From NCBI GenBank assembly GCA_014871385.1, contig CM026423.1, positions 23,607,067-23,671,066 of the forward strand: a stretch of 64,000 nt of DNA, read 5' to 3'. Below, piece after piece: positions 37,147 through 62,293 of this stretch. Each line of letters starts with the position of its first letter. Position 1 is the stretch's first letter. Position numbers and translations under genes: made by a program. Under the pieces are notes generated by a model. The model saw nothing but the letters and a program-made list of their open reading frames with translations, had not been told where the DNA came from and searched no databases. The DNA comes from Ceratodon purpureus (Eukaryota > Streptophyta > Bryopsida > Pseudoditrichales > Ditrichaceae).

Positions 37147-37203
37147 TTTAAAAAAAATTTGCGGCCGTCTCCGCGGCCGTCGCCGGGGACGGCCTCCCCT
37201 CCG

Positions 37204-37516
37204 CGGCGATGGCAAGGGGCCGTCGCCGGGGACGGCCCGCCCACCGCGGCGACGGCCCCTCTCCGCGGGGACGGCAAGGGGCCGTCGCCGGGGACGGCCC
37301 CCCCACCGCGGCAACGGCCCCTCTCCGCGGGGACGACAAGGGGCCGTCGCCGGGGACGGCCCCCCCACCGCGGCGACGGCCCCCCTCCGCGGCGACGGCA
37401 AGGGGCCGTCGCCGGGGACAGCCCTCCTACCGCGGCAACGGCCCCTCTCCGCGGCGACGGCAAGGGGCCGTTGCCGGGGACGGCCCTCCCACCGCGGCGA
37501 CGGCCCCCTTTCCGCG
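37204..37516. repeat. Five tandem 62-bp GC-rich repeats
   Basis: Units are phased by CAAGGGGCCG at 37213, 37275, 37337, 37399 and 37461. Each unit contains GGCCGTCGCCGGGGACGGCC and can fold on itself. CpG density is very high, in contrast to the AT-rich centre of the element. Confidence 0.85.
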
Positions 37517-37681
37517 GCGACGGCCGCTTTCTGCTCCCGCAACCCCTTTCACCTCGGGGTGAAACTTGTGCAAGTGATTTTTTTTTTCTAAGTCACAGGA
37601 CGTCCTGTGGCGCTGGCGGACGTCCGCGGACGTCCCCACGTCCCGAGCGTCCCGGACGTCCGTGACAACCCTGATTGAGAA

Positions 37682-43241: not shown

Positions 43242-44319
43242 ACTGGACTTACTGGAGAAGCAGACAGACCAGAAGATCACCAACAGAAGGGACCAGGAAG
43301 GAGAAGCAGTGACTGCCCTAACATAGAAGGCGGCTACCAAGGGTGGGACAAGGAAGAATTGGCTAGAAGACAGGCAGCAGAGAGGCTGGCCAGATACGAG
43401 CTCAGGGAGCAGCAGAGAGCAGCAGTTGAACCAGGAAGGAACATGGGTGGGCAGCCCAGCTCGGAGGAGAGCATTGCCAAAGGAAAGACCAGGGACTTGA
43501 TTGACATGGATCTGGTGGGCGAAAATTCAAGCCAGGAGACACTGCTTGGAATAAGCAGGAGGACAGGATCAGCTAAGGGCGAACCTAGTCCCAGTTTCAG
43601 GAACTGGCAGGAGGATGATGAGATCAGGAAGTATGATGGCTCAATGCCATCACCAAGGACCAGCAGAAGGGAGTTTCCAAGATCAGGAGGTGGAGACATC
43701 CATCACAGTTGGAATCCTCAACTGGAGACAGCAGTAGCATACGACCAGTTTCAAGAGGAGGAGAAGAGAAGCACCAGCCGACCTAATACACCAAGACCAG
43801 GAATACAGACACCAGGGGACTTGGTGGAGACGCTGGAGTCACTGAAGAAGAAGCTGGACCAGGTCAGGAGTGAAGACAGGATTACAGGAGAAGCAGTACC
43901 CACTTCAGATCCGACCAGGACCAGCAGACAGGGACATCAGACCACAAGGAAGCAGACAGTTCAGTTTCAGGGACCAGAGCTGGATGAAGAAGAAGAAGAC
44001 AGGAAGCAGCTGGAGCAGTTCAAGGCCCAACAGCAGGCCAGAAGGCAAGCAGAGAGAGAACGAAGAAACCAGCAGGCAACAGAGGACCTGTACAGGAGGC
44101 AGATGGAGGAGCTAGGCCAGGCAGCCAGGTTCAGAGAGACAATGGAGGCTTGGGAAGAAAAGAATCGGGAGGAGATCAAACTGAAGGAAGCCATGAAGCT
44201 ATGGCAGGAAACAAAGAGACTTGAAGAGCAGGACCAGGAGAAGTAGAGACAGGAGGCTCTCAGAACCTGGCAGGAGACTCAAAGGAGGGAGGAGATGAAG
44301 CAGGCAGCGAGGGAAGCTT
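43242..44319 (+). pseudogene. gag: Gag of element C, N-terminal part
   Basis: An open frame with no ATG between a stop near 43239 and the first in-frame ATG at 43443, so the true start is unresolved. The protein is highly charged and Gln/Glu/Arg-rich, with long helical runs (for example ARRQAERERRNQQA) typical of a gag N-terminal extension. TAG at 44244-44246 interrupts it, probably a former CAG. The frame is then broken at 44320-44323 (GTAC) by a DNA transposon. Joining to 59680 with one GTAC copy keeps it open. Confidence 0.7.
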
Positions 44320-44323
44320 GTAC

Positions 44324-44393
44324 GTGAGCGGAGAGCGCAGAGCGGAGAGCGGTGAGCGCAGATTTGGAGAGCGGAGAGCACAGAATGGGGGAC
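44324..44393. repeat. Left terminal inverted repeat
   Basis: Built of short GAGCGGAGAGCG(CA) units. It matches the reverse complement of about 59610-59675. The following 44394-45287 is AT-rich, with T-runs near 44790 and 45030, and holds no gene. Confidence 0.85.
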
Positions 44394-45287
44394 AGAACCT
44401 AAAAATAGCACTTTTTTTACTAAAAATAAATTATAAAATTAGAAGATTCGAATATTCTTAGTGTATTTTTGGAAATAAACTAATTTAAGTAATTTAATTT
44501 ACCCTATAACCGTGGACTAATTACAGTATTTTCATTGAATTTGTAGTTCATATTCTCCTTTCTTGGTGATTAATTTTTTAACGTGCACCAATTACTATGC
44601 TCCAGCTCCTTCTAACTAGTTCAGGCATACAGTAATTCCCCTTATCTCCTTAAATTTATATGCAAATTACTACTTAAAATGTTTTGGTATTGAACCTGTG
44701 AACAGGGATCAAGTAACATTTAATTTCATAACATTTTCTTAACATTGCTAGAATTCATCCACTATAGTCTACATGCCTTTCTCCTTTTTTTTTTTTTTTT
44801 AATTTTTTTGAAATTTGTTATGTAATTTTTATAAAATTTTCTTTATTCTATCTATCTTGTTAGAGGGGTCAAAAGCCTCCTTGCATTTGATTCTCTCCTT
44901 CATTTTATTTTCACAATCATTTTATTTTCACATTCAATTTGTTGATCTCCTTCATATTATTTTCAACCTTCATTTTAAATATTGCTATTCTTTTCTTTAA
45001 TCTTTTTAATTTCAATTTATATAAATGTCTTTTTTTTTTAATTTTTTTTTTTTTTTTTTCATTCTTTAATTTTTAAAGAAAAATTTAAATGCTAAATGAC
45101 CTCTGCTAAACCTTCATCTTTTTCCATTCGGTTTAGGAGGATGACAACTTTTAAATGAATGAATAGCCGATTTTCAAGGGCGCCAAGCATCTTCTTCAGG
45201 GATATTTAAGATAGGAGTAGGGAATGTCTCTGCCTCTTTTGTATTGGTGTTATGTGAAGCTCTTTTCCGTAGTGCGGGACAGCACCT

Positions 45288-45740
45288 ATGGAAGACGTCA
45301 GAGATATTGTTGTTTCACTCGCTGACGATGTTTGTCCATTTCAACCATATGTTGAGGTGGAGGACGAAGAAGAGGTGATGGCCAACAGCCAAGGGCGTCC
45401 GGCGACATCGGATGTTGCGGTACAACCGGATGTAAGAGCTGACCCTCCACGTTCAGAAAATTCGGATGAAATCATAGTGCTAGAGAAGGACGCAGATGTG
45501 CCTCTGCAACCACATGCATACTCGAAGGTTGGAAAGATCCCAAGGGGAACCTATTCCAGGGAATCAGTTAATCGGAGGCGGGGAGGTGGGCCATTGCTGA
45601 AACGATCATTCCAAGGACATTTGCCAAGTGTGGGAACGAAAGTGAATGCGAATGTAGTTTCTCCTGTAGTATAGTCAGCGGCTGGCAATCCTGCTGATAG
45701 TGTAGTGGGCAACCCTAAACGTGTTAGGTTCGAAGATTAG
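45288..45740 (+). CDS. Small acidic ORF at the transposon left end
   Basis: ATG at 45288 opens a 128-codon frame to TAG at 45672-45674. The same frame then continues 21 codons to a second TAG at 45738-45740, ending in a basic KRVRFED stretch. The protein is acidic at the N-terminus (DDVCPFQPYVEVEDEEE) and basic at the C-terminus. No domain is recognised. The first TAG may be the true stop or a former CAG. It could be the remnant of an accessory gene. The 254 bp up to the transposase stop hold nothing visible. Confidence 0.4.
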
Positions 45741-45994
45741 GACATCTAATAACAAGTATATGTTTGCCTTAATAAAGGGTACATGTCAGGGGATACGAGG
45801 TATATAGCGCACTTCTTCAAGATACAATGTATTGAAATAGAATGCAATCAATGTGAACGCCAAAGCCTTTAATATAATGAAAAAGTCAATACAGCTTCTC
45901 AATAGCTGACTTACTATATGGTATATTACTAAAATCATTCACTACGTGACAAATGGCCATTGTGGAAATGGAAGTTCTAAAGTAGGAGGGCTAC

Positions 45995-48900
45995 CTACTT
46001 CTTCGCCAAGGGGTGACGCAAGATTCCACCCTCTAAGAGTAGCTTGACCTCGTTGAAGCTGAAGGTAGGCGCATGGATGAAAAGCTCGGATTCGGGATCA
46101 CGGTTGCAGATCTTCAAGAGTATGTAGTATAGGTGCTTACAATACGTGAACTGAGTCTTGCCACGGAACGTAGTCATTGTCTTCTTGAATGCTGGGCAAG
46201 TGCAACCAGGGTAAGAACTGATGGTAATCTGGTACCGTGTGATGTGTGGAGCGACGCCGGAATCCAGCCCAATGATGCAACCGTGGCCCGGCTCAGGTAT
46301 CATGGTGACGGAACGGAGGCGCGCTTTAAGAGATTCGGAGGAGCCCATGGAGAGTCGCTGCGCTTGATTGGGACGAGTGGCAGTGCGCTTCACCATCTTG
46401 CCGTCTCTCTTGCCTGGGTAGCGGTCAGCGTCTGCAGGGACTGGCACCGAGTTGAGATTTGCAGGGGGCGGGGCAGAGGAGAAGAGGCGTCTTGGGGAGA
46501 CCGGTTTCTTCTGCGGAAGTTGGAAGCCCGCTGCTTCGAGGGCAAGAATCTCAGTAAGTTTTAGGTTAGTACCTAGTTTCACTGGCCACACCTCTGGAAT
46601 GGAGGGGAATTCCTGGTCCTTTGAGTAGTGTGCTACCCACTTGCGCTTAGAGCCTTTCACGCAACGCTCGATATCGTCGGAGCAGAAGAAGAACTCAGTC
46701 TTCTCCACTAGGTTCCTGCGATAGTTAGTCCAGAGCCCAGTGTAGGTCGGTGCAGCTGTGCAATGGGGCCCCCTGACGATTCTCTCAGTGCACTTCTTCT
46801 TCGTTTCAGCTCTTTGGGCCCAGCAGCACTTCGCAGAAAGTTTGTGAAGTCTCGAAATGTGCCACTCCTTCACGTCCACCTTGGTTTCTTCAACCGCGTT
46901 GACATGGCGAATGCCGCCCTTGTTCACAGGTGAAGGTAAAGGGGAATCAACTTCCTGGGCAGGAGGTTGGGTACATTGTACCTCGGTGTCGTGTTCGGAG
47001 TCGTCTTCGACAATGACGGGCATCTGCATAGGGCGAGCCCTGACGGCACGTCTTGGGCCTCTTGGGCGTGAGAAGTTGGTCTTCTCCGGGCGATGAGACT
47101 CTTCGTCAGCTCCGATAAGGACGTCGGCCTTTCGCTTCTGTGAACCGAAGACTTCCGCTCCAGGCATGATAGGCTGACGGGTGCAGAACTCATCAGCGCC
47201 TGGCATATCGAGCATGGGCTTGTCGAGCAGTGTAGGATTTCCCCATTTCTTCGCGTTGCGTTCAGCCATCCGAAGCCTGAGTTCCTTCTTGGATGGTCCT
47301 GTTCCGCCGACGTCACCTTTGAGGAACTGGTAGTAGTTGACGACCTGTAGAAATGCCCGAACGAAATCGTCCACGGTAGCAACGTACAGGTCGTTCCCGT
47401 TGTTTCCTGAAGCTTGGAGCCACTTGTTGTGAACTGTTTCGGCGAGGTTACAGGTAGGCATCTCTGTAAGTTCTTCTTTTGTGAATTTCTGCAGGTTTGA
47501 CAGTAGGTGCCGTTAGATTCACGGATTAGAGTTTTGTAGGTTAGGGCTAGGAAACCAGTATGAAAAACATAAAAACAGAGTGCAGAGATCGTACCTCGGT
47601 CATGAATCCCCCCCACTGGCGGAAGCGGTGGTGCCAGAATGACAGCCACTGATCGAGTTTGATGAGCCCGCTCTCGCCAACGACCCCGGTGGATGCCCAC
47701 CATGCTCGCAACGCGTGGTACAGAGTTTCCGCCTCTGCCATGCTGGTCGCATTCTTGTACTGAGTGCACATCTTCTTGTGCTGTTCCCAGAGTTCTTCGG
47801 GGAAGTGCTTCTGCGTATACGCCACCATGTTCTGAGTCCAGTGGAATAAGCACGACCGCTCCCGGTCCTCCATTGGGTCCTCTTTGTTGCCATTGCCGTA
47901 AAGGATCCGCACTGCATTCCAATTGGCCTGTGCGTTATCCGCCATGAACCCCTTGAAGTTCGGCGCTGCAACGCCATTGATCTCCATGACCAGGTTCAGG
48001 TTTTTCCAGAAGACGAGCTGGGCGTCCGTGTCCTCGGACTGCATGTCGCAAGTGGCGATTGTCATCACGCGGCAGTAGGTGGCGTCGTACACATGGCACG
48101 CCATCGTCGACCAATCTTTGACGCGTTTGACATGGTCGAACATGATCCATGCGTTCTCCAAGTCGCCACCAGCTTGCATACGGCTGACCAAGTCGACACC
48201 ACTGCCCGGCCCGACCTCCGACATCTTGAAGACAAAGACTTTGTCACGCATGGATCCCTGACCAGGAAACCTATTCTCCTGGACATACGCCCAGAGACTG
48301 TTTCCACGGAGCTTGGTGATACCGTCCATGATTCCGTACCTTACGAATTTTTTGAAGGTGGCGACTTTGTTGCGGATGTTGGGCGACGCCATGTCTTTGC
48401 ATCGATCCAGAACAGGAACCAGCTCCTCCATCGTCAGCTTCCTCGGTGGAGCATCCTCGGGCTGTAGAAGGTAGCTCCCAATGAGGAGTTTGCTGGCCTC
48501 CAGGACAACGGCGCTCTTTGTGGCTTTGTTGTTCATCTCTACCTGCTCTTCTATTAAGCTACTAATCTCTGCTTTAGAGTCTCTGTAGTCTCCAACTTTC
48601 ACTGGATGATCATGTGTTCCTATGTGAATACAAGCTCTAGTCTGAGTCGGTTTGCCCACAACATAATAAATCTTAGCCTCGCATGTAGCTACACATGATG
48701 GAGGTTCTTTACATACCTTGCACAATAGCGTGGACTCAGATGGAGGAGGCTGGTCCATGACAAAAGCTTGCAGGGTACAGCCTTCAAACTCAGTCTCGTT
48801 AACCTCGAAGATCTTGGGAACACGCTTCAGGAAGTCACACTCCGGGTTGCTGCAGCGCAGCCATCCGACGCAAGTGGAACTTCGAAAAGAGAGTCCGAAG

Positions 48901-49676
48901 TCGTTTTTGATGTTTGTTGTGATGGTCTTGGTCCACAAGTGTCCGTCGTATCGTTTATCCATTCCCTGCATAGACTTGGCGGCGAGCTTAGAGGATCCTG
49001 CAGCAGCTGGAGGCAACTCAAAAAGAACCGGACCGTCAAACTTCGCAGGCAAGTACTCTACTCTCTCGTGTCTAATAGTGGAATAGTCTATCTTCTTCAA
49101 AATGTTTTTGGACCCACGCGTCTTAGCAATCTCTTTAAGGAGCGGAACAATGCTAATTCTGACCGGGGACAATGGAGGAGAGACATTGGAAGGAGGAGCA
49201 TCTGCGTGGACCTTAGGCACCAACTTGACGGGACTGACTTCGTCGTCAGAAGAGAGAGATATGACGGTCGGAGGAGGTTTCTCTACATCTGAAGTCTCGG
49301 TACCAGGCTCGACTTTGACTTTGACATCATGAGGTAAGGGAGTCTGAATTGTGCAAGTAGATGAGCGACGGGGGGTGAGGATCTCAGTGGATGCAGCCAT
49401 AAGAGAATCAGTAAGACCATAGACTCTATAGGATCCAGGGAGGAGTCTCCACTGCAACATGTTGTTCTCATCTCTCATTGAAGGTTGTCCGAGGGTGTGG
49501 GTAACCTCGGCAGTAACGTCATCAAAGATCTCCTCCTCTATACTGATGGAATCCTCACGAAAATGGAATCTGAGACTGAGGCGAAGAGAGGACACCGTAG
49601 CTAGACCATCGTCATCTACGCGAAACCTAAGAGGGATGCCCATGCCTTGGGCGTACAGACAGACCATCCCCATATT
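45995..49676 (-). CDS. MULE-like transposase with SWIM zinc finger
   Basis: Two exons on the minus strand, 49676-47595 and 47461-45995, joined across a 133-bp intron (donor GAG|GTACGA, acceptor AGAG|ATG), give 1182 aa with no stop. The N-terminal third is an acidic linker. A zinc-binding region around 48850-48650 (CSNPEC, CKVCKEPPSC) is followed by a DDE core: WIMFDHVKRVKDW, FMADNAQANWNAV, and a C..H motif (SCLFHW). The second exon starts CNLAETVHNKW, a block typical of Mutator-like transposases, and ends with a SWIM finger C-X-C...C-X-H (about 46210-46120). A strict MULE assignment is uncertain because the 4-bp TSD is shorter than the usual 8-9 bp. Confidence 0.75.
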
Positions 49677-50470
49677 CGCAGGCAACACAAATATACTAGA
49701 GGAAGAAGGAAGAAGAGTGAGTGTAGTAGCAAAGCAGTATCGCGAGAGCGAAGTGAGAGGAATGATGCATCGCTGTTGATCATTTTATTCAAATTGGAAT
49801 GTCCATGTGGACGACTAGATAATGATTCATTCTGCTACGTAACGAATGTATGATTAAAGAGAGACGGCGCTAACTAATTATGATGTTGCTTTTTGCAGGC
49901 CCATAAATATGTAGTAAGATTTTTAGAATATTGCGTCGCGTATTTGAATGGTGGAGCAGATTCTATTTTTTATGGGGTGTGATCGGATTAAAAAGAGCCG
50001 TCTATTCCTTTTGCATTTAAAACAATAAATATATAGAATTTGAATTAATCAAATTCATGCATTAGTTATATATTTATAAGACTAATGCAAGCATATGATT
50101 TATTCAAATTCTATATTTTATTCAGTGTTTGAGTTCCTCAATTTTCATAATAAATTACTGGACAGACAGACTGTGAGTGAGATTAGAGTGAGCCGTCACT
50201 TGCATCCATATTTGATACAAGTATTTCTGTGCTTAATTCAAACCTTTTAATATTATGTGGGCTTTGTTTATTCTCTTCCAATATAGATAGATCCCATCAG
50301 CTTTAATTCAAATTGCAATTTATTTATAGTTTTCATTAATTCAAGTAGGTTTAGAATATGGGAAGTATTTAGGGCTGAGTCAGGGGGGTTGCAGGTTTGG
50401 GATACATAAGTTAGAGGGAAGTTAGGAGGAGAGCTATATTGTGAAGAGACTTCTCTCGTTAGTTAGACAT
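49677..50470. promoter_or_regulatory. Divergent promoter region between transposase and methyltransferase genes
   Basis: 794 bp of AT-rich sequence between two genes that start head to head. It holds a short inverted pair, AATTCAAATT...ATATATTTAT and its complement (about 50025-50125). No ORF. A shared promoter is inferred from the layout only. Confidence 0.5.
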
Positions 50471-53400
50471 ATGAAGGACAGTGGAGGGTCAGCTCCCTCC
50501 ACTTATGTCACTCCTAGGCGTAGAAGAAAACCAGGTGGTACAGATTTTACTAACAGGAGATCGAGGAAGAGGAGAGAATTAAGTAGGAAGTCAAAGTCGA
50601 AAGGCAACCTCTTGAGTGCACCTCTGAAGGTTCGAGGAGCTGGGCTGCCTGTGGCAATTAAATTTTGTAGCATCCGTAAACTCATTCTAGAGTCCATAGT
50701 AGAGGCGGAAGATGAGGTTTTAGAGGATACCGCAGTTGAGCATGAGGAGCATGAAGTAATAAGTAGCGGAGAGAAACATCTGGAGATGACGGAAGAGCTA
50801 GGACTGAATTGTAGTCCGACTTTGGAGACACCGCAACCTTCTTTCGGATTCAAGGAGTGTTCGACAGGAGGGACGGATTCTCAGTCGGGCGACCATGGTA
50901 ATATAGATGTGGTAAGTTTCAGAATCCATCAATAAAAAGATATTAAATGTGAATTATAGTTCGTTTGAAGTATTGTCTTTGCTGCGGGTTCGTTGTTTTA
51001 CTGTTTAGAATAGTGAAGCTGCATGAATCTGAACGGTTGTTCAAAATAAAAGTGGAGTAGTAAATTTCGTCATAGTCCTAAACATTTGCGCAGATTGGCG
51101 ACTTGTTTAGGATTGAGCAAGACGTTGAAGAGGAGAAGACGCCAGAAGTGGTTACGGGCGAGGAGTCAGATCATGAGACGTTGAGAAAAGTCGCTAGGAG
51201 AGCGAGACGCCAAATTATGGAGGCGGGCGAAGGTGGGGAACTACTTGCTGCTACACGAGCGGGGCGAGGGCACCCTGGAAGTCCTACTGAAACTAGTGGG
51301 GAGGATGATCATTCGCTTGACATTGCGGGAAGTCCAGGTCCAGAAGTGGACATGGATGAGGGGTCGGCCCGAGGAAGAGGTCGAAAGTCCGAGGTGAGGG
51401 GTCGAGGGAGGGGTAAGGGTCGAGGTGGGAGAGGGAAGGCCTCTTTGCAAGCCCCATCGCAACAAACAGCCGCGGCCACGTTACAGGAGAGAAGAGCTGA
51501 GGAGATGGCGGATCGTGGAGAGGAGCATGGAGAGGAGCGTCTGGAGGAGGTCACTGCGAGTGAGGAAGGCAGGTCAGACCGCGGCCCTGCCACCGAGGAG
51601 GTGAGAATCGAAGTTCGGGTTTTGGGTTTTGATGATTTGTGGGTGTTTAGATTTGTGGGGGAGGATTGGGGGGAGGGGGGCTATGTTGAAATTGGGGGCT
51701 TTGCGGAGGCCAAGGCCGCGGCACGAGAGCCTGCAGCTGCAGCTTGGAGGAGCCACCTTGCGGCACTTGCCCCGGGGGCAGAGGTGCTCGCCAAGGCGCA
51801 TTCGGAGCGGACATCCGCAGTTGAGGTTGGGCTGGATTGGGGGGAGGGGGGCTATGGAGAAATTGGGGGCTTTGCGGAGGCCATGGCTGCGGCCCGAGAG
51901 CCTGCAGCTGCAGCTTGGAGGAGCCACCTTGCGGCACTTGCCCCGGGGGCAGAGGTGCTCGCCAAGGCGCATTCGGAGCGGACATCCGCAGTTGAGGTTG
52001 GGCTGGATTGGGGGGAGGGGGGCTATGGAGAAATTGGGGGCTTTGCGGAGGCCATGGCTGCGGCCCGAGAGCCTGCAGCTGCAGCTTGGAGGAGCCACCT
52101 TGCGGCACTTGCCCCGGGGGCAGAGGTGCTCGCCAAGGCGCATTCGGAGCGGACATCCGCAGTTGAGGTTGGGCTGGATTGGGGGGAGGGGGGCTATGGA
52201 GAAATTGGGGGCTTTGCGGAGGCCATGGCTGCGGCCCGAGAGCCTGCAGCTGCAGCTTGGAGGAGCCACCTTGCGGCACTTGCCCCGGGGGCAGAGGTGC
52301 CCGCCAAGGCGCATTCGGAGCGGACATCCGCAGTTGAGGTTGGGCTGGATTGGGGGGAGGGGGGCTATGGAGAAATTGGGGGCTTTGCGGAGGCCATGGC
52401 CGCGGCCCGAGAGCCTGCAGCTGCAGCTTGGAGGAGCCACCTTGCGGCACTTGCCCCGGGGGCAGAGGTGCCCGCCAAGGCGCATTCGGAGCGGACATCC
52501 GCAGTTGAGGTTGGGCTGGATTGGGGGGAGGGGGGCTATGGAGAAATTGGGGGCTTTGCGGAGGCCATGGCTGCGGCCCGAGAGCCTGCAGCAGCAGCTT
52601 GGAGGAGCCACCTTGCGGCACTTGCCCCGGGGGCAGAGGTGCCCGCCAAGGCGCATTCGGAGCGGACATCCGCAGTTGAGGTTGGGCTGGATTGGGGGGA
52701 GGGGGGCTATGGAGAAATTGGGGGCTTTGCGGAGGCCATGGCCGCGGCCCGAGAGCCTGCAGCTGCAGCTTGGAGGAGCCACCTTGCGGCACTTGCCCCG
52801 GGGGCAGAGGTGCCCGCCAAGGCGCATTCGGAGCGGACATCCGCAGTTGAGGTTGGGCTGGATTGGGGGGAGGGGGGCTATGGAGAAATTGGGGGCTTTG
52901 CGGAGGCCATGGCTGCGGCCCGAGAGCCTGCAGCTGCAGCTTGGAGGAGCCACCTTGCGGCACTTGCCCCGGGGGCAGAGGTGCCCGCCAAGGCGCATTC
53001 GGAGCGGACATCCGCAGTTGAGGTTGGGCTGGATTGGGGGGAGGGGGGCTGTGGAGAAATTGGGGGCTTTGCGGAGGCCATGGCCGCGGCCCGAGAGCCT
53101 GCAGCTGCAGCTTGGAGGAGCCACCTTGCGGCACTTGCCCCGGTGGCAGAGGTGCTCGCCAAGGCGCATTCGGAGCGGACATCCGCATTTAAGGTTGGGC
53201 TGGATTGGGGGGAGGGGGGCTGTGGAGAAATTGGGGGCTTTGCGGAGGCCATGGCCGCGGCCCGAGAGCCTGCAGCTGCAGCTTGGAGGAGCCACCTTGC
53301 GGCACTTGCCCCGGGGGCAGAGGTGCCCGCCAAGGCGCATTCGGAGCGGACATCCGCAGTTGAGGTTGGGCTGGATTGGGGGGAGGGGGGCTATGGAGAA

Positions 53401-56400
53401 ATTGGGGGCTTTGCGGAGGCCATGGCTGCGGCCCGAGAGCCTGCAGCTGCAGCTTGGAGGAGCCACCTTGCGGCACTTGCCCCGGCGGCAGAGGTGCTCG
53501 CCAAGGCGCATTCGGAGCGGACATCCGCAGTTGAGGTTGGGCTGGATTGGGGGGAGGGGGGCTGTGGAGAAATTGGGGGCTTTGCGGAGGCCATGGCCGC
53601 GGCTCGAGAGCCTGCAGCTGCAGCTTGGAGGAGCCACCTTGCGGCACTTGCCCCGGGGGCAGAGGTGCTCGCCAAGGCGCATTCGGAGCGGACATCCGCA
53701 GTTGAGGTTGGGCTGGATTGGGGGGAGGGGGGCTGTGGAGAAATTGGGGGCTTTGCGGAGGCCAAGGCCGCGGCACGAGAGCCTGCAGCTGCAGCTTGGA
53801 GGAGCCACCTTGCGGCACTTGCCCCGGGGGCAGAGGTGCTCGCCAAGGCGCATTCGGAGCGGACATCCGCAGTTGAGGTTGGGCTGGATTGGGGGGAGGG
53901 GGGCTATGGAGAAATTGGGGGCTTTGCGGAGGCCATGGCTGCGGCCCGAGAGCCTGCAGCTGCAGCTTGGAGGAGCCACCTTGCGGCACTTGCCCCGGGG
54001 GCAGAGGTGCTCGCCAAGGCGCATTCGGAGCGGACACCCCCACTTGAGGTGGGGGAGGATTGGGGGGAGGGGGGCTCTGTTGAAATTGGGGGCTTTGCGG
54101 AGGCCATGGCCGCGGCCCGAGAGCCTGCAGCTGCAGCTTGGAGGAGCCACCTTGCGGCACTTGCCCCGGGGGCAGAGGTGCCCGCCAAGGCGCATTCGGG
54201 GGTGACACTCCCTCACAAGGAGGGGGAGGATGTGGGGGAGGAGGAGGGGGAGAAGGGGGCTTATTTTAAAAATAAGAAGAATTATATCTGGGGAATGAAT
54301 ATGTTTAAATGTCAACTGTTGCTTTCTTCTTGTTGTTTCGTGTTTTCTGTTGATTTCTTATTATTTGTTTTTCCTTTGTATTGTAGGAGGTCACAGAGCA
54401 ATTCACTGCAAGTGACTTTGATGGCCCAACTCCAGCTGAAACTGAGGTAAGTTGTTGGATTTTGGTTTCTCAATTAAGAATAGCATAGTATATTCAACCT
54501 CCATAGTCCTTTCTAATTTTCTTTTGAAAGCTTAGTTGGGAATCTGACAATGTCTTTGTTCTTTTTCTCTAGGTATTCTCAGATGCACCCTTGTCCATCA
54601 GTTCGCCGATTTCAGTGATCAATGTCTCCGACCTCTCGGATTCGTTTGATCAGCATTATTTATGTAGATGTGATTCGGGCAACCCTGTAGGTTTAGGTAG
54701 TGGACCTCTCGAGGTCCACTCTCCTCAGTACATGCCTACGTCTCCTGTCTATGAGCCTACATCCCCGGGCTACATGCCTACCTCTCCAAGACTTGGGACC
54801 CCGCCTATGTCTCCACCTTCTCCATCCTCGCCTATTAGAGTGAGGAGGCCAGCCCATGTTGTCTTCGCCCTCCCGGCGATACTGCCATGCCCTGTCCAGC
54901 AGACTAGGCGATTTTGGAAGAGGCGCCGTCACTGGAACTGTAGACAGTCTAGGGAGTATTATAGTCGTGCACGACGCACATAGTGGCCTAAGCTCTACTT
55001 ATTTCTGCTGCAGTCTGAGATGTACCAGTCTGCGAAGTAATTCTTATATTCTACATTATTGTTTTCGATTTGCTTACGTTCTTTATCTTTTAAGCAACTC
55101 TAAATACGTATGACGTTTGACAGGTAACTCAAACACAAACACAGGATCAGTTGCCAGCGCCATCTTGTCCTACTGAATTGACGAATGCAGTGGACAGTGA
55201 ATTGGAACACAGAAAACAATTCAAATTGGACTCTACAACCGTCATCAATGACCTCCGAATACTCCCAAAGACGAAGTCCCGTATGCTCGTACCCCTCTGC
55301 AGGATGCAGTCAATGGCAAGAGTGCGACCTGTAGGAGAAATGGGAGTTCAACATTTGGAGCGAGAGTTCGTCAATGGATATAGAGATGGTGACCGGGTCA
55401 TGTACATTTCCATGTACAACCACGAGGAGATGACAGCGGAAGTCACGCCTGAGATCAAGGCTGACTGGAGCCCTTGTTGGCAGAAAGTCAACGATGCTTT
55501 CGAGGATGAGCTCTTGGCCGATCCTGACTTGAAGGAGTTCTCCGGGAAGATGTTCTATGTCTGGGAAGGTAACCATCGCCTTGCCGCATGGTACAGACAT
55601 ATCAACAACCATCACTATGATGATCCAGCTTGGCACATCTCCGTGCATTGCATTGTTCTCGACCCACGTGGTCATGTGGGAAACCTTCTTCATGCCATGC
55701 ACGACATCAACTGGTAAGCATTTTTTCCCTACTTCTTGTCCTCACTTTTTGAAAGCTGCTTGAACTTTCACTACACGGCTTTAACTACCTACCATATCTT
55801 CGAGCAGGTCCACAGAGAATGATTACGTGAAGAGTAATCTTCCTGCAAAACTCTTTCGTATTCGCTCTTTTGGTGTGATGAAATTGGAGGAATTCAAGGA
55901 TCTGCTCTCACCAGCGGAGTATCAAATATGTTTGAATCACAAACCATCAATTCCAGGATGGTTTACTTTGCCAACCAAAATCTTCATCACATTTCTTTAT
56001 CGTGTAAGCACTTTCTCCCCCCCCCCTCCCCTCACGCTTCTAAATGTCATGAATTGCCATGCTGTTTATACTCAGAAGTTGATAATTTTATTTTCCAGAG
56101 AGAAATCGTGGCTGCTTCTGACGAAGCTGCCCGGGCCTACAAGGAGAAAACACCCATAACAGAGCAAACGGCGGCGGGTGTATGGGATGCCATGTCTGCC
56201 GCTTCGACCAACATGGTCGACTACATTAAGAGGAAGGACTTCACCAAGTACCTCGCCATTGCCAATCCCAAAAACGGTGATGACTTCCTCGCGGAGGTTA
56301 GTTTCTTCACATCTCTACTTTACTTTTGAATAAGTAATTTAAACACTAACCTTCCCGTTCATGTAATGTTCACTTCCCAGATCAATCGGCATTACAGTGA

Positions 56401-59147
56401 ATTCTCCAAGCCGGAGATGACAGTGGACAAGCTTCAGAAGATTGTTCCTGCAGCTGTTGATGCAAAGTTCAAGGCGCGTTGGCTGAGGTGGTGGAACTCT
56501 TCAGCAAGTGCACGACAATCTTACAGATTTTTGCCCCAGGAGTTTAAGGAGGCCGACTTCGACCCTTGGTTGAACAAGGCAACATTCTGGGCTGGGGTAT
56601 AGTACCTTCAAACCTCGAAATAATTACAGATACTACTTCTTCTTTGTCCCATGTCAATATTTACCTCAATGACTTTACCTTTCAATCGCAGATAGAGGAT
56701 GCTGTTTCCCGGGAGTTTGATGACATCTGCAAGACCGAGAACGTTGTCATCAAGTGGAAGTCCTTCCCGGGACTGTTGCGGCCAGACGCATATGTGGAGA
56801 GTTGGCGTATTCTCCTTTGGGAAAAGGCTTTCCCCGCATTTATAAGTACTCGCGCAGAAAAGCCTTTTGATAAGAAGTCTGATTTTTCCACTTATCCGGG
56901 AGCAGCAGATGTTGTTAAGCGTGTGACATACCGGTATGACTTTTATGCACTTCGAATTTTTATCTTTTTTTCTTTTTCGCTTTTATTTACTGTCAATACT
57001 ATGATTCTGATTAATATGGCACATGATTTTCATTAGGTACTTCACGAGAGAGCTGCTTCCAAAAGGTGCAATTGACCCTGAGAAGTTGCCTTCATACTTC
57101 GCCTCGTGGATTCAGAGAGGCTCTGATCAGTGTATCTATACTCCTCTGCAGCTGAAGAGGTTCAGCTCTCCGCACCTAGCCGCTGGTTGTTGGTACCTCG
57201 ATTGCATTCGAGGTTTCGTTGTTGAGTCTGAAGCGGAGCTCAAAGCTGAGCTTGACGCGGGATCAATAGCCATCGACGATTCTGGAGACGGTTCTGATGA
57301 GGCCGAAGGCCTCCAGGATCAATCATCTGCACCTCCACCGAAGAAAGGGCGGGGGCGGCGACTGCGAAAGCTGGGTGCTACGTCCCAGGGCTCTCAGGAG
57401 ACTGGTGCAGAGTCCTCCGCACCGGAGAAGGGCGCTGCCATTCCACTCCCTGTGATTGTCGTTCCCAATCCGTCCCCTACTCCTGCGCCTTCATCGGTCA
57501 GTGCATCCGCTATTACCAGAGGTCTTCTGGAGCAAAGGAAGGCCAGACTTCTCCCGGCAAGCACCTCCTACGCAGGAACTCTCCATTCCACTGGTGTTTC
57601 TATCATCAAGTCATCCGTGACCCCGTTACTGGTTCGTAACATGGAGCTCAAAGACAAAGGTGGCCATCCGGATTGGGTGAAAACTCTAGACTTCGTGCGC
57701 AAGGTATGAGTCACTTCTTACACAATTCGATATTACATACACTTCAATTAATTTCATATTGTCTAACCCTATAGCGTTGTTTCTCCAGTTTGGAAGTGGC
57801 CGCCAGAACGAAGTTCCTGAGCGGTGCCAGGTTGAGAATCATCTGGGAGTCGACTTGATCATCGTTGACATCCCTGAGAATCTTCCTGTCCCTCTCGTTT
57901 CCGATCCCCCTACCGTGATTCCTCCTTGGAACTCCCGTGAAAAGGATTATGTGTACGACATTTTCTATTTTGCAAGTCTTTACTTGCAAAATGATGGCGC
58001 TCTGTGCATCATCTACAACAATGATCAAGCGTTGGCAACGGAGATTCTTGAAGAAGCTAGCGCCACTAAGTTCGTCCTTTACAAAGACTGGTGGGGCTTC
58101 AATGAGCTCGGCCTCACTTCTCCTACGAACCCCGGAAACCTGGTAATTTCATCCTTTCCTTTCCTTCAGTTTACTTAGTACTATCCCTTCCGTTTATTCA
58201 TTCTGACATAATTTGGTTGATTGCAGACTAATCGGTTCTGGATCCGGGTCTTCGTTCGTGGTGGCGAGCCGCCATCTAAGTTCTCCTTTCAAACGAAGAA
58301 ATCCGATGTCATACACGGCGACCTCAACATTACCGAGAGTGATGCGATTTTCAACTTTATCGACGTTGATTCTCAGCAAATGAATGGGGATGTTCCATGG
58401 AGAGGGCCAAGGGAAAAATCCCCTGGGATGATGCAGAGCATAATTGGAGAGCTCTCGAAGCCCGGCGACATAGTCCTGGACTGGAAGGCAGGAACAGGTA
58501 ACCGTTCTTACATGTTTCCCCAGAATTATTTCTCTGATTCCTTCCTCAGTTTCTCACGTCTTCACCTTGCTTTGACTTGCAGGGGCCTCTGTCAAGGCTT
58601 GCCAGGCTATTGGTCGTCATATTATAGCTTTTGAGGATGACGAAGCCATATTCAACGCCCTTCTCAAACCGTATATGGCAGCAAAATCTCCCATGGGCCC
58701 CCCTAAACATCCTAGACCGGCAGCAGCAGAGGAAGCACCAGCAAAGAAACAAAGACCCACTAAGTATTGTAAGTCTTAGTCTATGCTTTGTAGGTTTCGT
58801 GCAATACATCTAGTATTATTTCTGTACGCAAATTTACCTATTCGTTCTAACCACTTCTGGCTTTCTATTGCAGAGTAGTTGTGACAACACCGCCAAGTGG
58901 GCATAGAGCCGTGTTCACTCCATCGTGGCGTCTTAATTCCAGCCCGGTTCAGCCTTTTATTCTTCCGGACTATGCAGAGGGCTTAGCACAAGCGCTTCAA
59001 TGTGGTGCACTTAGATATGTTCCTAGTCGGCCCACTAATTTTGATCCCAGGGCCCTTCTATTTGTCGATGACGAGGCTGTAGAAGGAGAGTCTGAGTCAT
59101 CGGGTTCTGAGAGTGGAAGTAGCGACTGTAGCATCTTCGAAGTTTGA
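50471..59147 (+). CDS. Transposon-borne ParB-like / N6-N4 DNA methyltransferase fusion protein
   Basis: I read 14 exons: 50471-50911, 51094-51600, 54387-54446, 54573-54839, 55124-55713, 55808-56003, 56099-56296, 56381-56596, 56692-56933, 57037-57703, 57789-58142, 58227-58497, 58583-58768, 58876-59147. All borders are GT-AG and phases agree, giving 1488 aa. Domains: basic then acidic/RG-rich N-terminus (1-316); three CTD-like heptads Y[ME]PTSP (389-409); a ParB-like region (about 475-610) with EGNHRLAA (573-580); a helical middle; a basic GRGRRLRK linker; a methyltransferase with motif IV VDLIIVDIPEN (from 1149) before motif I DIVLDWKAGTG (1327-1337) and GRHIIAFEDD. That order is the beta class. 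DPPY is replaced by DIPE, so catalysis is uncertain. The least certain borders are those at 54839 and 58876. Confidence 0.72.
51601..54386 (+). other. Intron 2 of the methyltransferase gene
   Basis: The donor GAG|GTGAGA and the acceptor after a long pyrimidine tract (TTTGTATTGTAG) keep phase 0 between exons 2 and 3. Nearly all of the intron is the 171-bp minisatellite. If it were retained, the frame would stay open to 54450, giving a 1115-codon reading with 15 repeats of 57 residues. Confidence 0.65.
51664..54228. repeat. Minisatellite: 15 tandem units of 171 bp
   Basis: Unit starts (GATTGGGGGGAGGGGGGCT) recur exactly every 171 bp from 51664 to 54058 with no indels. The first and last two units are more diverged. 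Variation is confined to a few positions, such as CTATG/CTGTG and GTGCTC/GTGCCC. Each unit has a G-run that could form a quadruplex, a PstI-like palindrome around GCTGCAGC, and CCCCGGGG. Because 171 is divisible by 3, several frames on both strands stay open. Confidence 0.95.
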
Positions 59148-59675
59148 AAGAGGCCTCGCTCTATCATTGTTTCCATTTAATTTGATTCGATTTCAGTGGA
59201 GTTGATTACATACTGCATCGTCTACTCTATTGCAAAGCACTAAAATATTCATGATTCTCATTTCCAGTTTATACTCGTGTATACCTTGCCTCCTTTATGT
59301 TTTGTGAAAGTTGTTTTTTTCCTCGTGCATTTACATAATTCTATGAAAGAATTATTTGTTTGATCTAAAACTCAACGCCTGATCATTGTATCTTGCCCAA
59401 ACCCATGATAAATCTAAAGGAATGTATGCATGACGTCATCATGACATCAGCCCTAATTTGTATCTTTGAGAACAAACGTAATAAATTCTTACCAGAGATA
59501 ATCCTAATTTCCACGGTAATATACTCTTTTTCTAAAAAAAGTGTCAAAATTAAGCCTTAATTTAGTAATTTTCCACGGTTATAGGGTCTACTTTGCTTTT
59601 GAAAATTTTCCTAATTGTCAACTCTGTGCTCTCCATTCTGCGCTCACCGCTCTCCGCTCTACGCTCTCCGCTCAC
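59148..59675. other. Right terminal region of the 15.35-kb transposon
   Basis: Noncoding and AT-rich, holding the internal inverted pair (59572-59587) and the right terminal inverted repeat (about 59610-59675). No gene seen. Confidence 0.75.
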
Positions 59676-59679
59676 GTAC

Positions 59680-62293
59680 GAACTTTCCCCAGCAGGCAGC
59701 TGAGAGAAAAGAAGCAATGCAGCAGGACCTGCTAAGACAGGAGGCTCTGCGTTTATTACAAGAAGCACAGAGATTGGAGGACCAGAATAAGAAGGAGGAA
59801 GAGATGAAAGAAGCTGCCCGGCAGGCGACCCTTTACAAATGGCAGGAGATACTGAGGGAAGAGAGCCAGAAACTCCAGGCCAAACCAAGGGCGGATCCGT
59901 GGGCAGCATATGACCAATCAGTGGTCCAGGGGGACAGACCAGGTCAACTGAGGGAAGCAGAATTGATGGGAGCACCCTATACTACATCTGCTGTACCTGG
60001 AAGGCCAGGGACAGACCATTTCCCAACCTCGAGGACTCGGGTGAGCCCAACAGGAGGAGGAGGGGTACATTCTACCTATGTGGATCACCTCACAGGTGAT
60101 GAGTACAGACCAGAAGTCAACAGAACTGCATACTGGCCAAGCGGAGGAGCAGAAGCCGGAGCAGGAGTTCCTGACACAGGAACAGGATATAGAAGACCAG
60201 CAGAGATAATGAGAGGGATGCCGTATGATACTAGGCCACCTGCAGGAATAGGAGTACCAGGGGATATAGCGGACAGCAGTTATCTAGTGAGGCATGGTCC
60301 ACCAGCCTACCCACCAGCTACTAGACCCAGAGTACCACCAGTGACAGGACCAGTCTTTGTGGCACAGAGGAAGCCGCTGACCTACACGAAGTACAAGGAA
60401 GGGACGAATCCAGATGCTCACATACGGCAGTTTGAGAGGACCCTATGGCACAACGGAGAAACTGATGAGCAGGTGATAATCAACCTGATGGGTACCACTT
60501 TGCTGGACAAGGTTGGTGCATGGTATGAGAATTTCCTAGAGAACCATGTCTACTGCTCATGGGAGGACGTTAAAGCTGCTTTCAGGAGAAGGTACAGAGA
60601 CCAGACCACGGATGAGGCAGTATACAGGGAATTGAAGTCCTTCTACCAGGGGGACAGAGAGAAGGTACAAGATTACTATGATCGGTTCATGACTCTAATC
60701 AAATGTCTACAATCTGATCCAGGGGAAGGGTTCAGAATCACTAATTTTCGAGCAGGACTACTGGAGTATATCAAGATTACTACGAGTGTAGCACCAGTCA
60801 AGAGCTTGACAGAGTTAGTGGATGCAGCCTTGAGATGCGAGGAGAACTGCACTGACTCTAGTGGTAAACCCACTAAGATTGAGGTAAAGAAAGTGGAGAC
60901 CAGCAGTAAGGCAGCCACAGTGACCAGGAAGGAAACAAGCCAAGAGGCTCCAAGGAAAGCCTGTGGAATCTGTAAGAAGCTGGGCCATGACGATGCAAAC
61001 TGTTGGTACAACCCAGCCAACCAGAGGGGGTCAAATGCGAAGAAGGAAGGAGAAGAACCTGTTTGTGTCAATGAAGTATCTGCTTCTAAACCTGCAGGAA
61101 GTTACAGTTACAGCCAAGGGTACCAGAGACCACCGAACTCCAGGGCAGGCAGTAGTCAACAGAGGAGTTATGGTGATCAACCACCGTGTTGCTTCTTGTG
61201 TGGAGGAGCAGACCACAGAAGCTGGAACTGTCCCAAGAAGGCACAATGGGATCAATTTTTAGCTGACCAAGAGAAGACGAACAAAAAACAGGATCACCAT
61301 GTGAGCAATGTGGAAATTGAATGGCTGGATGAGCCACAGGACCTAGTGGACATGGCTAGTATGACCAGGGCCCAAAGGAAGAAGGAAGGATTACCTCCTA
61401 TTGAAGACCAGTCCAAGGAACCAGAACCAAGGAAGGCCCAGACCAAGGAAGACTTGAAGGAGGAAGAACGGCTCAGGGATTCTATGCTAGAAGCCCTGAA
61501 AGAGATTCAGCTCAAGGAGGAGCAGGAGGCCAGAGCAGCAGAGCAGACCAAGACTGCTCACTCACATGAAGCTCAGGAGATGGCTGAAGCAGAGGTACAA
61601 GACAATGAGTGGGCAGGATTCCCAGATTCTGACGTCCTCAATTACAGCTTAAAGACTACTCAAGAGGGACGAGGAGTACCTGCAGAAACGAGTACAAGGG
61701 GGGACCAGGAGCAGGATTATGCAAACTTGGTGGGCAGGAGGATATTGGCCAGTCCAGTTACTGTGCCTTTGGGTCAGCTACTACAGATGGCTCCAAACAT
61801 GATTGAGATTGTCAAGGCCCATGTGTTTCCGGAGTTAAGGGCCAGTAAGGATTCTGGTCAAGGCGAAACGGCTGGGGTGGAGCAGATGACCAGAAAAGGA
61901 GGTCAACCAGGTCTGATACCCAGCTTGGCAGTAGATGTTGACACAGAATTGCCTATGTTAACTGTGCAGATTGGCAACGGGACCTTGGACAAGGTATTGC
62001 TGGACGGTGGATCTGGTGTCAATCTCATTACTGAAGAGGAGCAGAAGCGTTTAGGATTGAAGGACCCACAACCTGCTCCCTACAGATTGAGGATGGCAGA
62101 CCAGACTGTGGTGGAACCAGTAGGGATAATCAGAAATGTGAAGGTACACATCCATAGCATTCCTTATCTGATTACACTAACTGTCATCAAGAATAAGGAA
62201 GTGAATGAGGAGTATAGCATGCTGCTAGGTCGTCCTTGGTTGATCGATGCAAAAGTCAATCATGAGTGGGGTAGAAATCTCGTCACAATTTGA
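59680..62293 (+). pseudogene. gag: Gag-protease of element C, continued
   Basis: Resumes gag after the transposon, in the frame of 43242-44319. It has a helical Gln/Glu stretch and a Pro-rich linker. A Retrotrans_gag domain follows (about 60400-60850: ERTLWHNGE, AWYENFLENH, W.DVKAAFRRRYRD). There are two CCHC knuckles (CGICKKLGHDDANC near 60964, CCFLCGGADHRSWNC near 61190). An aspartic protease has DGGSGVN (near 62010), LRMADQT and LLGRPWL. The frame stops at TGA 62291-62293 within NLVTI-stop-GNGTVKTV; other elements continue through this position, so the stop is probably a mutated CGA. Confidence 0.82.

Follow-up and report, generated by a model that had tools for sequence, protein, structure and literature searches.

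A high-copy MULE-like transposon family in Ceratodon purpureus pairs its transposase with a conserved gene of N6/N4 methyltransferase fold

A 64,000-nucleotide stretch of the Ceratodon purpureus genome (assembly GCA_014871385.1, contig CM026423.1, positions 23,607,067 to 23,671,066; hereafter the window) contains a complete DNA transposon of 15,382 bp (44309 to 59690, no strand assigned) with two divergently transcribed genes, both open: a MULE-like transposase and an intron-rich cargo gene whose product contains a methyltransferase domain. Both gene models were drawn by eye, from genomic sequence alone. The element, bounded by terminal inverted repeats (TIRs) and target-site duplications, belongs to a family that is high-copy and recently active, in which the cargo gene is linked to the element's ends and both genes are conserved, and the same pair is present at one diverged locus. 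The reading favored here, with a probability of about 60%, is that these are MULE-like transposons with a DDE-type transposase and a second, VANC-like accessory protein that the element needs, whether to escape silencing or to assist transposition as a cofactor.

A search of the Ceratodon purpureus genome (362.49 Mb, 151 contigs) found 620 exact matches to the 16-base left end of the element (303 forward and 317 reverse) and 532 matches to a degenerate pattern for the cargo exon encoding DIPENLPV (260 and 272); the reversed-pattern control for each had zero matches. The linkage count was confined to contigs C1 and C2, where both position lists are complete. On these two, a cargo exon follows 64 of the 91 left ends in the same orientation, 4 to 40 kb downstream (within 10 to 20 kb for 54 of them), and 62 of the 83 cargo exons have such a left end. 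By comparison, pairing in the opposite orientation yields 11, and the circular-shift control has a mean of 2.2 and a maximum of 9 in 1000 shifts. A first-pass annotation of the window had proposed a transposon that carries a methyltransferase-fold gene beside its transposase, and these counts establish that elements with the same repeated ends and the same cargo occur elsewhere in the genome.

The borders were placed by extending 11 elements (the one in the window and ten fetched stretches), both ends being present in nine of them and common to all nine. The left ends read GAGGG[A/T]AGCTTGTAC... in all 11 cases; the nine right ends read ...GTACGAACTTTCCCC, with GTAC in eight and ATAC in copy C13. 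The flanks start to vary only beyond these extended ends, 15 bp outside the GTAC borders. Because the sequence shared by the copies continues outward for another 15 bp at each end, GTAC is internal to the repeat, which rules it out as a target-site duplication. The first-pass annotation had taken it as one and had set the borders at 44324 and 59675, each 15 bp too far inside. The duplication is instead the 10 bp sequence AGCAGGCAGC, at 44299 to 44308 on the left and at 59691 to 59700 on the right (neither with a strand); a 10 bp duplication flanks all nine copies with both ends, its register being ambiguous in C13 due to a run of C. An inverted-repeat scan of the window recovered a pair around 44311-44362 and 59637-59688, confirming TIRs at the location claimed for them. 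The left TIR (44309 to 44362, plus strand) is composed of heptad-like units (GAGCGNA) and matches the right one (59637 to 59690, minus strand) at 49 of the 54 outermost positions, which replaces the earlier description of 39 bp with one mismatch. According to the available text of PMC6446971, MULEs have target-site duplications of 8-11 bp and many, though not all, have TIRs; both the 10 bp duplication (nine of nine, one with ambiguous register) and the TIRs (49/54) agree with that description.

Two left ends on contigs other than C1 and C2 (C7:17464277 and C6:61569687; L031-L034, one base different inside) are accompanied by only a decayed 3′ remnant of the transposase. These loci, C7 and C6b, were rejected as full elements: the 20 kb read contained neither a right end nor the cargo, and the C7 stretch ends in X/N. 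They are probably derelict or rearranged copies.

At its site in the window, the element interrupts a retrotransposon gag, whose right part lies outside the element at 59691 to 62293 (plus strand). Joining the flanks with a single duplication produces ...EEMKQAAERKEAMQQ..., a continuous in-frame gag, as had been claimed for excision; but the gag is itself broken by an in-frame TAG at 44244-44246, 62 bp upstream of the insertion, and the retrotransposon copy at the host site is therefore not intact. The window also contains, outside the element, a GC-rich 62-bp tandem array of 5.5 copies (37175-37524).

Comparison of the copies indicates that both genes are under purifying selection, of about the same strength in the cargo as in the transposase. 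The cargo comparison covered exons 3-14 of 15 sequences, comprising nine full copies and six right-end pieces that cover exons 5-14, and the ratio of nonsynonymous to synonymous divergence (dN/dS) was calculated pairwise against the window with an in-house Nei-Gojobori script. In seven of the eight diverged comparisons, the cargo has a dN/dS of 0.15-0.20; in particular, the ratio is 0.18 for C11, 0.20 for C13 (dS = 0.79) and 0.15-0.17 for five right-end pieces (L037-L041). For the near-identical copies C10, C12, C1, C4 and C6c, it is 0.15-0.29, as calculated from 3-22 changes. The transposase has ratios of 0.08 (C11), 0.14 (C6a) and 0.16 (C13), and of 0.09-0.19 in the closer copies, besides a value of 0.37 for C4 that comes from 16 changes. 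Within the cargo, the segment around an [E/D]GNHR motif has ratios of 0.08 (C13), 0.05 (C11) and 0.04 (L038), and the methyltransferase domain has ratios of 0.24 (C13), 0.22 (C11), 0.18 (C6a) and 0.13 (L038). Moreover, copy C13 (L029 + L030) is a mosaic, with a dS from the window of 0.10 in the transposase and 0.79 in the cargo; the element's halves seem to have been exchanged between subfamilies, with the switch point between the two divergent genes. Since selection has preserved both genes, the second protein is probably of use to the element, helping it to spread or to escape silencing.

The same partnership is found at a much greater distance. In a genome search with the Pfam profile PF01555, 150 of 772 candidates were scored and at least 32 matches emerged, the best four of which, read as loci, are diverged relatives. 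Around one of them, locus B (18 kb of contig C3), the minus strand carries a transposase (tblastn E = 7e-139, 43% identity over 550 aa, with two additional pieces) and the plus strand a cargo (E = 1.7e-45 for the [E/D]GNHR segment, with additional exons), so that the pair has the same opposed orientation as in the window. The two transposases are 39% identical over their length, and a likeness at the left end of locus B, GAGGGAGGCTATGAC, is a hint only. Locus B is also repetitive, since two cargo stretches (1968 and 594 columns) of L044 on contig C12, another of the four loci, match it at 95-97% identity. The recurrence of the same partner in the same layout, at 39% transposase identity, speaks for a partnership of long standing and against capture by chance.

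The transposase model is full-length and unbroken, as the first-pass annotation had it: 1190 aa encoded on the minus strand by two exons (49673-47595 and 47488-45995) with one GT-AG intron and no internal stop. Exon 1 (47595 to 49673, 693 aa) contains the candidate catalytic residues D530 (48084-48086) and D579 (47937-47939) together with a C(2)H motif, C608-x2-H611, and exon 2 (45995 to 47488, 497 aa and the stop) contains the candidate catalytic residue E710, within CNLAETVH (47438-47440). At residues 1122-1145 (46133 to 46204, minus strand), there is a C-terminal C-x-C-x(n)-C-x-H motif that we take to be a SWIM-like zinc finger. All of these candidate residues were assigned by eye. A Pfam scan of this transposase and of its 39%-identical relative found nothing above cut-off and no MULE match, the weak matches being DUF6301 (0.09) and DUF5763 (0.18). 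A protein search with exon 1 residues 240-693 found 161 relatives at an E of 0.1 or better in public contigs, which may include Ceratodon purpureus itself; the best 120 of these (P0027-P0146) are 43-99% identical, with a Pfam domain in none. This is a transposase family that has no Pfam model despite its 161 relatives in public sequence. Lanisha, a group of DNA transposons reported from Ceratodon, was considered as an identity for the family. The accessible part of Kojima 2025 (PMC12730594) places Lanisha in the CMCT clade, which is characterized by C(2)C and H(3-4)H motifs, by ends that are mostly CA..TG and by duplications of 2-5 bp. The 10 bp duplication and GAGGG ends of the present element rule this identity out, and its candidate C(2)H motif differs as well.

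The cargo model (50471-59147, plus strand) comprises 14 exons, is stop-free and encodes 1488 aa, with all 13 introns being GT-AG, and it reproduces the length that had been given for an unbroken, intron-rich gene. Exon 1 (50471 to 50911), with the start codon, and exon 2 (51094 to 51600) are followed by intron 2 (51601 to 54386), which consists mainly of a 171-bp minisatellite (51663-54199, 14.8 copies). The minisatellite has 2.7 to 21.8 copies across eight elements, including the one in the window, and was not found in copy C13. It is open in several frames on both strands; a 1115-aa frame over it was rejected as coding, since the array lies between a splice donor and an acceptor, several of its frames are open and its copy number is so variable. 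Exon 3 (54387 to 54446) precedes exon 4 (54573 to 54839), which encodes heptads resembling those of the RNA polymerase II C-terminal domain (CTD), YMPTSPV-YEPTSPG-YMPTSP, at 54729-54788. Residues 391-403 match the Pfam Rpb1 CTD repeat at 0.012, under the model's cut-off, and residues 397-436, with most of the heptads, are identical at 37 of 38 positions in the diverged C13 cargo. Exon 5 (55124 to 55713) includes the most constrained segment, with the [E/D]GNHR motif (55559-55579). It is followed by exons 6 (55808 to 56003), 7 (56099 to 56296), 8 (56381 to 56596) and 9 (56692 to 56933), by the linker exon 10 (57037 to 57703) and by four last exons. Of these, exon 11 (57789 to 58142) has the methyltransferase motif IV position, DIPENLPVP, starting at 57867; exon 12 (58227 to 58497) has the start of motif I (DWKAGTG, to 58497), which continues in exon 13 (58583 to 58768) with the remainder of the part that binds S-adenosylmethionine (SAM); and exon 14 (58876 to 59147) ends with the stop codon. 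A first protein search, with a 931-aa cargo query, returned zero matches at 0.01.

At the level of the protein family, the methyltransferase label is borne out by Pfam and PDB profiles. Cargo residues 1305-1362 match Pfam N6_N4_Mtase (PF01555) at 3.1e-7, above cut-off in a whole-protein scan, and the family is matched by all four members of the cargo alignment, the window included. Against PDB, the window cargo matches DpnA at 7e-5, and a profile of the same four members matches DpnA at 1.3e-7 and CcrM at 3.9e-6, with the CcrM match spanning both of the domain's halves. Motif IV comes before motif I, the order of permuted beta-class enzymes, so that the cargo shares both its Pfam family and this order with DpnA, CcrM and their phage relatives. 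These comparisons identify the cargo as having a beta-class N6/N4 methyltransferase fold, which is a statement about fold and not a claim of enzyme activity.

Catalysis is doubtful. The consensus of catalytic motif IV is (D/N/S)-P-P-(Y/F/W) and motif I usually has the form F-x-G-x-G; the window cargo deviates from the former (DIPE) and does not have the latter. In an 11-row methyltransferase alignment, where the only invariant columns are two Asp, four ordinary methyltransferases have motif IV sequences of the form D-x-P/D-Y (DPPYN, DPDYN, DIPYG and DLPYG; 18-23% identical to the window domain), whereas the window has DIPEN. Three phage methyltransferase genes were used for this comparison. 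The relatives P0017, P0019 and P0024, which at about 36-43% identity are at least distant family members, have DLPEN, DIPEN and DIPEG, and copy C13 retains ADIPENLPVP. Since D-[I/L]-P-E is present in all of these, loss of the aromatic residue is a shared feature of the clade. Further, three relatives from the same genome have DQPFE, DQPYN and DQPFD. We infer that, with the aromatic residue replaced by Glu, catalysis has been lost or changed in the DIPE clade and that it may persist in the DQP[F/Y] relatives, which may still be enzymes. Because of the same replacement, the domain of the DIPE clade would probably bind DNA or SAM rather than methylate, and the earlier proposal that the cargo alters DNA methylation is not favored, at least as an enzymatic activity in this family. 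Separately, two N6_N4_Mtase matches (G000:C1:5958254-5958736, profile 29-190, and C5:15306119-15306592, profile 29-187) lie inside open frames of 567-569 aa, unlike the transposon exons, and are possibly host amino-methyltransferase genes.

The first-pass annotation had also called the cargo ParB-like and had related it to the ParB-methylase fusions of bacteria and phages. The [E/D]GNHR motif of exon 5 is kept in all three aligned sequences, but no profile from Pfam, NCBIfam, PHROGs or PDB recovered ParB for this part. The sole ParB-related hint is DndB, at an E of 0.035 in one of three members, amid equally weak unrelated matches to a Spa2-type domain (0.13), a PHROG of unknown function (0.12) and a ribosomal protein (0.057). 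Nor did two limited scans, with two peptide patterns each, confirm any [E/D]GNHR relatives in viral and prokaryote contigs (48 and 34 stretches), so that the tie to the fusions is not borne out by them. The ParB label for exon 5 is an unproven lead that comes from a resemblance of motifs.

The proposed mechanism is modeled on VANDAL transposons of Arabidopsis. Similar to the present element, they are of MULE type, with tandem repeats and a second element-encoded protein, VANC, beside the transposase (PMC5735166, in the text available). There, VANC binds a short DNA motif that has accumulated in tandem repeats and causes loss of methylation in its own family; the likeness to the cargo is one of description, and the part of that source at hand does not mention a methyltransferase domain in VANC. 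VANDALs are also termed non-TIR MULEs in the accessible text of one review (PMC13317346), whereas the Ceratodon element has TIRs. As a side observation, VANC targets are often tandem repeats too (same portion of PMC5735166), which may be compared with the 171-bp minisatellite in intron 2 of the cargo. By analogy, the transposase would cut and paste between the repeated ends, and the accessory protein, combining the constrained [E/D]GNHR domain, the CTD-like heptads and the permuted beta-class N6/N4 methyltransferase domain, would bind the element's own DNA, at its ends or internal repeats. It would then counter host silencing or serve transposition as a cofactor, as VANC does for VANDAL, most likely by acting on the element's own chromatin or ends.

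Other mobile elements carry comparable tools. In the available text of Kojima 2025 (PMC12730594), fungal DNA transposons of several lineages encode TET/JBP dioxygenases that are thought to aid escape from silencing, and SET histone methyltransferases occur in MuDR and HarbingerS elements of Phytophthora. The fungal elements resemble the present one in being DNA transposons with a DNA-modification gene, but their gene is a 5-methylcytosine (5mC) dioxygenase and their hosts are different. A literature search, with most subscription papers outside it, found no plant DNA transposase whose conserved partner has a methyltransferase fold of the N6/N4 type, and the word methyltransferase is absent from the accessible part of a review from 2026 on gene capture in plants.

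An alternative, which is possible but improbable, is self-methylation: the cargo would be, or would once have been, an active methyltransferase of N6-adenine or N4-cytosine, marking the DNA of the very element that encodes it, either for protection or to tune expression or transposition. The cargo's membership of the beta-class family in Pfam and PDB and the D-Q-P-[F/Y] of the three relatives in the same genome are consistent with this. There is also a precedent in the C5 cytosine methyltransferases carried by retrotransposons of dinoflagellates and charophytes, which methylate DNA (PMC5890265, as far as its text is available) and thereby place a methyltransferase in a mobile element of the plant lineage too. 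According to the same text, however, those are retrotransposons with host-derived enzymes, whereas the present element is a DNA transposon, and the fold of its cargo is of the beta-class N6/N4 type, motif IV being changed. Moreover, the aromatic residue that would stack on the base is gone throughout the D-[I/L]-P-E clade of the window, C13, P0017, P0019 and P0024, and motif I does not have its usual form.

About equally improbable is a cargo that plays no part in silencing and acts purely as a second DNA-binding subunit, needed for the transposase to assemble at the repeated ends. The divergent two-gene layout, the similar constraint on both genes and the heptad-like repeats of the TIRs, which suit a multimeric binder, speak for such a subunit; the methyltransferase fold and the CTD-like heptads suggest instead a role in chromatin or transcription.

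Several observations weigh against a second protein that the element needs, and some of them fit a captured host gene without function, as in Pack-MULEs. Of the 91 left ends on contigs C1 and C2, 27 are without an exact cargo exon, and of the 83 exons there, 21 are without an exact left end. The first-pass annotation had named copies without the methyltransferase gene, and the gene as an ordinary host locus without the ends, as findings that would count against it; the former are a minority only, and the latter was not found in a search that was not exhaustive. The unpaired ends and exons may most simply be due to decay and to variation in sequence. Many copies are also broken. Among the nine full copies, with splice sites verified for the cargo only, the transposase exons are open in five (window, C10, C1, C4 and C6c) and both genes are open in only four (window, C1, C4 and C6c); the transposase is broken in C11, C6a and C13, and the cargo in C10, C6a and C13, while C12 has an open cargo and is missing about 2 kb of its transposase. 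Decay of copies is usual for transposons. The selection estimates have weaknesses as well: the cargo has a dN/dS of 0.36 against C6a, itself broken, and the [E/D]GNHR segment has one of 0.21; cargo exons 1-2 are loosely constrained, at 0.42 (C13) and 0.62 (C11); the right-end piece L042 was unaligned (ratio 0.79) and was dropped from the counts; and the pairwise ratios are non-independent, because the copies are mosaic. At locus B, the only such locus that was fully read, the transposase has two in-frame stops and no right end was found in the 20 kb read. Finally, the Pfam MULE model is unmatched by two related transposases at E values up to 10, for which reason the family is called MULE-like and is not filed as a MULE member.

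Nevertheless, a functionless passenger is very unlikely. Its cargo would not be expected to hold a dN/dS of 0.15-0.20 in seven of eight diverged comparisons, at a dS of up to 0.79, nor its [E/D]GNHR domain one of 0.04-0.08 in three of four, and the pair would not recur at a locus whose transposase is 39% identical. An ordinary host methyltransferase gene that adjoins the element, with accidental ends, can be dismissed, as the 21 exons without an exact left end are its only opening, no positive evidence speaks for it, and the target duplications at the corrected ends, the 532 exons and their positional linkage contradict it.

A more far-reaching extension of the accessory-protein reading is speculative, and doubtful at present: a moss lineage of old, still spreading MULE-like transposons may have domesticated a bacterial-type amino-methyltransferase that became essential to them, with the DQP[F/Y] clade writing N4-methylcytosine or N6-methyladenine on its own DNA and the DIPE clade acting as a non-catalytic reader or competitor of that mark. 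The epigenetic tools already known from transposons are 5mC dioxygenases, C5 methyltransferases, SET proteins and VANC; a DQP[F/Y] writer with a DIPE reader, if true, would amount to an epigenetic system of a plant that is carried by a mobile element and operates on marks other than 5mC. The transposon and its cargo are themselves open to testing, as one genome contains hundreds of copies and both genes are open in four of the nine examined, and they connect the escape of transposons from silencing with the role of amino-methyl DNA marks in plants.

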